Shown here: piece after piece, positions 61,853 through 62,122 of the stretch
How positions within the stretch are numbered: the stretch's first letter is position 1
Layout of the letters: every line of letters begins with the position of its first letter
Source of the DNA: Ethanoligenens harbinense YUAN-3
GTDB lineage: Bacteria; Bacillota; Clostridia; Oscillospirales; Ethanoligenentaceae
Direction of reading: 5' to 3'
Assembly (NCBI RefSeq): GCF_000178115.2
Contig: NC_014828.1
Coordinates: forward strand, 1,643,310 to 1,707,309
DNA: 64,000 nt
Made by a program: the position numbers and the translations under genes
The notes under the pieces: generated by a model
Seen by the model: the letters and a program-made list of their open reading frames with translations, nothing else
Databases searched by the model: none
Told to the model about the DNA's origin: nothing

Positions 61853-61884
61853 AACAGAACCTCCTAAGTTCTTTAAAAAAAGTT

Positions 61885-61926
61885 ATAAAAAAAGTCATTG
61901 ACCGCTCTGAGAGCTATCAATGACTT
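61885..61926 (-). terminator. Intrinsic terminator/attenuator just before nifH
   Basis: On the minus strand AAGTCATTGA pairs with TCAATGACTT (10 bp, 61892-61926) with an inner GCT/AGC pair, followed by seven T (61885-61891). It lies 33-74 bases before the nifH start and 20 bases before the AGGAGG. No promoter fits between, so nifH must be read through it. Confidence 0.85.
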
Positions 61927-62122
61927 CTTTGTCTGAATAAAACTGGCCGCCATGTTCCACCGTGTGGAAGATGCGCTGGATTTTTTCGATGAATTCAGAA
62001 TACACGATTTCCCCACGAAATGCAATACCTTTTTTTGCAACAACAAAAAGTTTATGCAATTTTACGCATACCACAATACGGTCCGTCGTTTTTTGGGCAT
62101 TATGCAACACAAAATGAATCAT
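61895..62122 (-). CDS. 75-codon ORF in the nifH leader that runs through the terminator
   Basis: ATG at 62122 (GCAGG directly upstream; a TTG eight codons earlier is possible). The product has plausible composition, with an alternating strand (RIVVCVKLHKLFVVAKKGIAF), a helix (YSEFIEKIQRIFHTVEH) and a tail FYSDKEVIDSSQSGQ. Its stop lies in the 3' arm of the terminator hairpin, so a translating ribosome would cover the stem. I do not recognise a family; it may be a leader peptide. Confidence 0.5.
   Translation of the reverse strand: MIHFVLHNAQKTTDRIVVCVKLHKLFVVAKKGIAFRGEIVYSEFIEKIQRIFHTVEHGGQFYSDKEVIDSSQSGQ

Follow-up and report, generated by a model that had tools for sequence, protein, structure and literature searches.

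How can a nitrogenase operon be transcribed when a strong intrinsic terminator stands directly in front of its first gene? The question is raised by a 64,000-nucleotide stretch of DNA from Ethanoligenens harbinense YUAN-3 (the window), which is part of a complete genome of 3,008,576 bases. On its minus strand, nifH is followed by two PII-like genes (nifI type), nifD, nifK, nifE and a fused nifN-nifB gene; the names of the middle genes of the operon were assigned by eye from the sequence. A preliminary description of this locus had proposed that ribosomes on a 75-codon leader open reading frame (ORF) melt the terminator. Our comparative analysis points to another switch: with high probability, the nif operon is controlled by ANTAR-type transcription attenuation through a single RNA hexaloop, most likely by the ANTAR protein linked to glnA. 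The features of the leader are collected in Table 1.

Table 1. Positions of nifH and of the elements in its leader, numbered within the window.
Feature	Position	Strand	Remarks
nifH	61852-61028	minus	first gene of the nif operon; score above the NCBIfam nifH cut-off
nifH ribosome-binding site, AGGAGG	61865-61860	minus	read from the sequence
T-run, seven T	61893-61887	minus	read from the sequence
Intrinsic terminator hairpin	61930-61888	minus	fold compared with shuffles; covariation in relatives
Mini-hairpin GAC-AAAGAA-GUC, A1/G4 hexaloop	61933-61922	minus	predicted ANTAR binding site/antiterminator; covarying in relatives
Best promoter candidate, TTGCAT-N17-TATTCT	62025-61997	minus	weak prediction; transcript start near 61990
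75-codon ORF	61895-62122	minus	judged a chance ORF
Separate strong terminator	62559-62538	minus	probably the end of the upstream ABC-transporter gene; bounds the nif leader

Two structures competing for one strand

The core of the terminator is a 10-bp stem of AAGTCATTGA (61926-61917) and TCAATGACTT (61901-61892) on the minus strand. The whole fold, 15 bp with an inner 4-bp stem, has a free energy of -22.7 kcal/mol (z -6.4), and none of 200 dinucleotide shuffles folded equally well. Its stability is far above chance, and the strong minus-strand terminator of the preliminary description (10-bp stem, seven T) is confirmed. A consensus terminator scan, which allows loops of up to 8, passed over the hairpin with its longer loop, and Rfam returned no match above gathering score in the window, the leader giving matches at chance level only. 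The earlier claim that nif transcription needs readthrough of the terminator is supported for nifH, the expression of which should, judging from the sequence, depend on it.

The 5' arm of the terminator contains the 3' half of the mini-hairpin, and the two structures exclude each other: the GUC strand pairs either with the GAC upstream (mini-hairpin) or with the GAC downstream (terminator). The mini-hairpin has the properties published for ANTAR targets (a six-base loop with A at position 1 and G at position 4, on a stem of at least 3 bp). Known ANTAR targets are A1/G4 hexaloops that overlap terminators, and a 2012 survey placed nitrogenase subunits among the predicted ones (PMC3369931). ANTAR control of nitrogenase genes has thus been predicted before, and what deviates here is the single-hexaloop form. 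The preliminary statement that no nif operon was known under such control holds for translation-coupled control but not for ANTAR targets at nitrogenase genes, given that 2012 prediction.

From this anatomy we infer the following course of events. Polymerase starting at the nif promoter would by default halt at the terminator before nifH. When fixed nitrogen is short, a protein, most likely the single ANTAR-domain antiterminator of the genome, encoded directly downstream of glnA, would bind the hexaloop and hold the nascent RNA as GAC-AAAGAA-GUC; the terminator would then lose the strand needed for its 5' arm, and the nif operon would be transcribed. The nitrogen signal would probably arrive through a partner (glutamine synthetase or a PII protein) rather than a kinase, and one hexaloop per terminator appears to be sufficient. 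Such an attenuator would provide a concrete, testable mechanism of nif control for Clostridia and relatives.

Occurrence of the element in related genomes

A motif of the form RRC-A..G..-GYY, directly overlapping a terminator, recurs in the nifH leaders of relatives. An A1/G4 hexaloop overlaps 25 of 47 nif-leader terminators versus 45 of 763 controls (p 1e-16), the controls being other terminators in the same loci; a few of the 25 (for example at L070 and L071) look like chance matches. About 20 of the 82 loci studied have a hexaloop-terminator site before nifH, and three copies stand in tandem before nifH in a relative of the same family (G003; NifH 84% identical). In some relatives, the three strands covary (AAC..GUU..AAC, GAC..GUU..AAC and AGC..GCU..AGU), so that covariation is seen in both competing helices. 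The 100% pairing of the mini-hairpin is circular, because the aligned sites were selected for its stem; the terminator helix was no strict condition for their choice. In Ruminiclostridium nif leaders (L004, L052), loop position 1 is G, as in GAC-GAAGAG-GUC and GAC-GAUGAG-GUC, each before a terminator.

The element is also found outside nif. A covariance model trained on 16 nif-leader elements and the leader of one G003 aminotransferase was used to search 197 genomes of the order at a threshold of E 1e-3. It returned 17 new loci: nine before glutamine synthetase III (GS-III) genes, four before amtB, one before purF and three in unclear or unrelated places (domain checks of the downstream genes were made on examples). 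Elements also precede amtB in G001, a genome of the same genus, and in G003. An ANTAR gene is present in 18 of 18 genomes with hexaloop-bearing matches, two of which had supplied training sequences, versus 95 of 179 others (p 2.4e-5, genera not being independent; background frequency 57%). The sole match genome that lacks ANTAR has a match without a hexaloop, before a spoIIIAA-looking gene. The distance between element and ANTAR gene is 3.6-19 kb in ten genomes. Among nif-bearing genomes, ANTAR occurs in 20 of 20 with the element and 16 of 19 without, and its presence is uninformative there because it is nearly universal. An aminotransferase-like gene in G003 is preceded by a hexaloop-terminator element at 2198-2245 of L164 (G003:C78).

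Within the E. harbinense genome, nifH is the only convincing match to the model, no hexaloop element was found in the glnA and amtB leaders, and a strict pattern search yielded, beyond nifH, matches only at the level of the reversed-pattern control; these genome-wide statements rest on a search whose first pass can miss elements. One weak model match (C1:10156-10207) was rejected as an intergenic terminator lacking any nitrogen context.

One hexaloop in place of two

The genome encodes one ANTAR gene, directly 3' of glnA, and the placement is the same in G001 and G003. Its receiver-like domain carries alanine at the position of the phospho-acceptor aspartate (by alignment with Rv1626), as do its counterparts in G001 and G003; the signal therefore probably comes through a partner protein rather than a kinase. 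Of the EutV residues that contact RNA, Lys149, Glu160, Met172 and Arg175 are kept in the ANTAR domain and Arg142, Tyr164, Asn173 and Arg177 are altered.

GnfK/GnfR of Geobacter sulfurreducens also regulate nitrogen-fixation genes, and GnfR is an ANTAR antiterminator; they form a two-component system with a sensor kinase, whereas we expect none in the present case. The annotation of GnfR is that of a nitrogen fixation response regulator (PMC7962754). NitR of Clostridium saccharobutylicum, as cited in PMC6316151, is an ANTAR-family antiterminator that induces GS/GOGAT genes at nitrogen limitation, and the ANTAR gene studied here is linked to glutamine synthetase much as NitR is tied to GS/GOGAT. 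Control of nif is not described there, and the missing phospho-acceptor aspartate is a further difference from NitR. The nitrogenase units of Pelobacter carbinolicus, for which ANTAR-type attenuation was likewise predicted, were found with a dual-hairpin model (Ramesh 2012, PMC3369931), whereas we describe single hexaloops in Clostridia and relatives. EutV/eut, NasR/nasF and AmiR/amiE (PMC3369931, PMC8934654) share with our system an A1/G4 hexaloop on a stem of at least 3 bp, the overlap of its 3' half with a terminator, nitrogen-related genes and an ANTAR gene in the genome; they have two hexaloops, whereas here there is one, and the terminators are often in tandem.

Altering either hexaloop or the length of the linker strongly reduces or abolishes ANTAR antitermination (PMC3369931; PMC8934654). 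EutV binds single hexaloops in isolation, and Walshe 2022 describes a minimal binding site of one hexaloop, yet holds that both must be contacted to prevent termination; further work on single hexaloops was called for (PMC8934654). No second A1/G4 hexaloop was found within 22 nt of the window's element. Over the same distance, a candidate turned up for 2 of the 24 nif elements, and shuffled upstream sequence yields one at 5.6%; the candidate of L002 (Clostridium paridis) is convincing, and that of L059 amounts only to pairing within the terminator before it. Most nif leaders have a single hexaloop for each terminator, and in several leaders two or three hexaloop-type terminators stand in tandem.

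The amtB, GS-III and purF leaders, 14 in all, differ from the dual-hexaloop systems in that the hexaloop lies within a few nucleotides of the predicted 5' end of the transcript. Its stem starts 8-13 nt past the -10 box, and in 11 of the 14 the promoter is a perfect TTGACA-N17-TATAAT; one leader (L220) has A at loop position 4. With transcription taken to start about 7 nt past the -10 box, the stem would begin near +2 to +7, which leaves no room for a first hexaloop. For the window's nifH, the best, weak promoter candidate is 63 nt upstream of the hexaloop hairpin, so that the case for one hexaloop is based here on the missing second one and not on lack of room. We somewhat favour the view that one hexaloop is enough for a widespread class of ANTAR switches, and the leaders suggest that capture at the 5' end of the RNA, or tandem terminators, replaces the first one. 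If true, this class would break the rule that an ANTAR dimer contacts two hexaloops in succession, and natural one-hexaloop leaders with very short, simple transcripts make the question posed by Walshe 2022 testable. A search of the open-access literature, which includes few subscription papers, gave no account of nif or amtB leaders with one hexaloop, and priority is accordingly uncertain.

The same features bear on whether an ANTAR protein acts at all. The element could be real and be acted on by a protein of another family, or by RNA folding kinetics alone: most sites have no second hexaloop, which ANTAR antitermination is held to need, and several EutV contact residues are changed in the ANTAR of this genome. 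We regard this as unlikely, however, in view of A1 and G4 in the loop, the overlap with terminators, the nitrogen genes, the 18/18 co-occurrence, the linkage in ten genomes and the binding of isolated single hexaloops by EutV (PMC8934654).

Promoter position, insulation and the leader ORF

The G003 nif leader has TTGCAT-N18-TATAGT at a place similar to that of the window's promoter candidate. If the nif promoter instead lay downstream of the terminator, the latter would be an ordinary constitutive one that insulates nif from upstream transcription. Intergenic terminators are common, and a separate one already stands further upstream (Table 1). This explanation is very improbable: only about 34 nt separate the T-run from the ATG of nifH (61852), they are occupied by the ribosome-binding region with its AGGAGG, this interval showed no sigma-70-type site, and the hexaloop overlap far exceeds the control rate.

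The translation-coupled antitermination of the preliminary description, in which ribosomes on the 75-codon ORF reach its stop codon in the 3' arm and melt the terminator, is extremely unlikely and was rejected: the ORF is present as claimed, from the ATG at 62122 to a TGA (61897-61895) within the 3' arm, but its length is that of chance (when the 685-nt leader is shuffled with its dinucleotides kept, ORFs that begin with ATG reach 75 codons or more in 22% of the shuffles and, if any start codon is allowed, ORFs of 83 codons or more occur in 32%), it has no clear ribosome-binding site at normal distance and no Pfam match, and its start codon lies upstream of the best, if weak, promoter candidate (start near 61990). 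Comparison of leaders across relatives, proposed earlier for both ORF and hairpin, recovers the hairpin and not the ORF, the G003 nifH leader containing no ORF longer than 29 codons although three terminators precede nifH.

Further elements were observed in these leaders and at nitrogenase loci. A repeated (A/G)TTGCAT(A/T) motif lies upstream of the nif terminator (62025-62110, minus strand) and also in the G003 nif and glnA leaders (L106, L165); it could be a DNA-level operator. In Anaerocolumna and relatives (L024, L031, L045, L074, L077 and L078), a block, TTGACAAATCGATGTATTG, is conserved at the nif promoter, where it overlaps the -35 region, and is possibly a second, DNA-level control. 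The fused nifN-nifB (52872-55595, minus strand) encodes 907 residues with a NifX-like end; behind it, two adjacent overlapping ORFs resemble homocitrate synthase (50476-52370, minus strand), and nifV is, from the sequence, apparently split in two genes. The genome also contains a second nitrogenase cluster (L163 9761-18618; G000:C1, about 2481760-2490617) with a nifH homologue, VnfD (above the NCBIfam VNFD cut-off), a VnfK-like gene (just below its cut-off) and two E/N-like genes, and this cluster sits directly behind genes of an iron-type ABC transporter.
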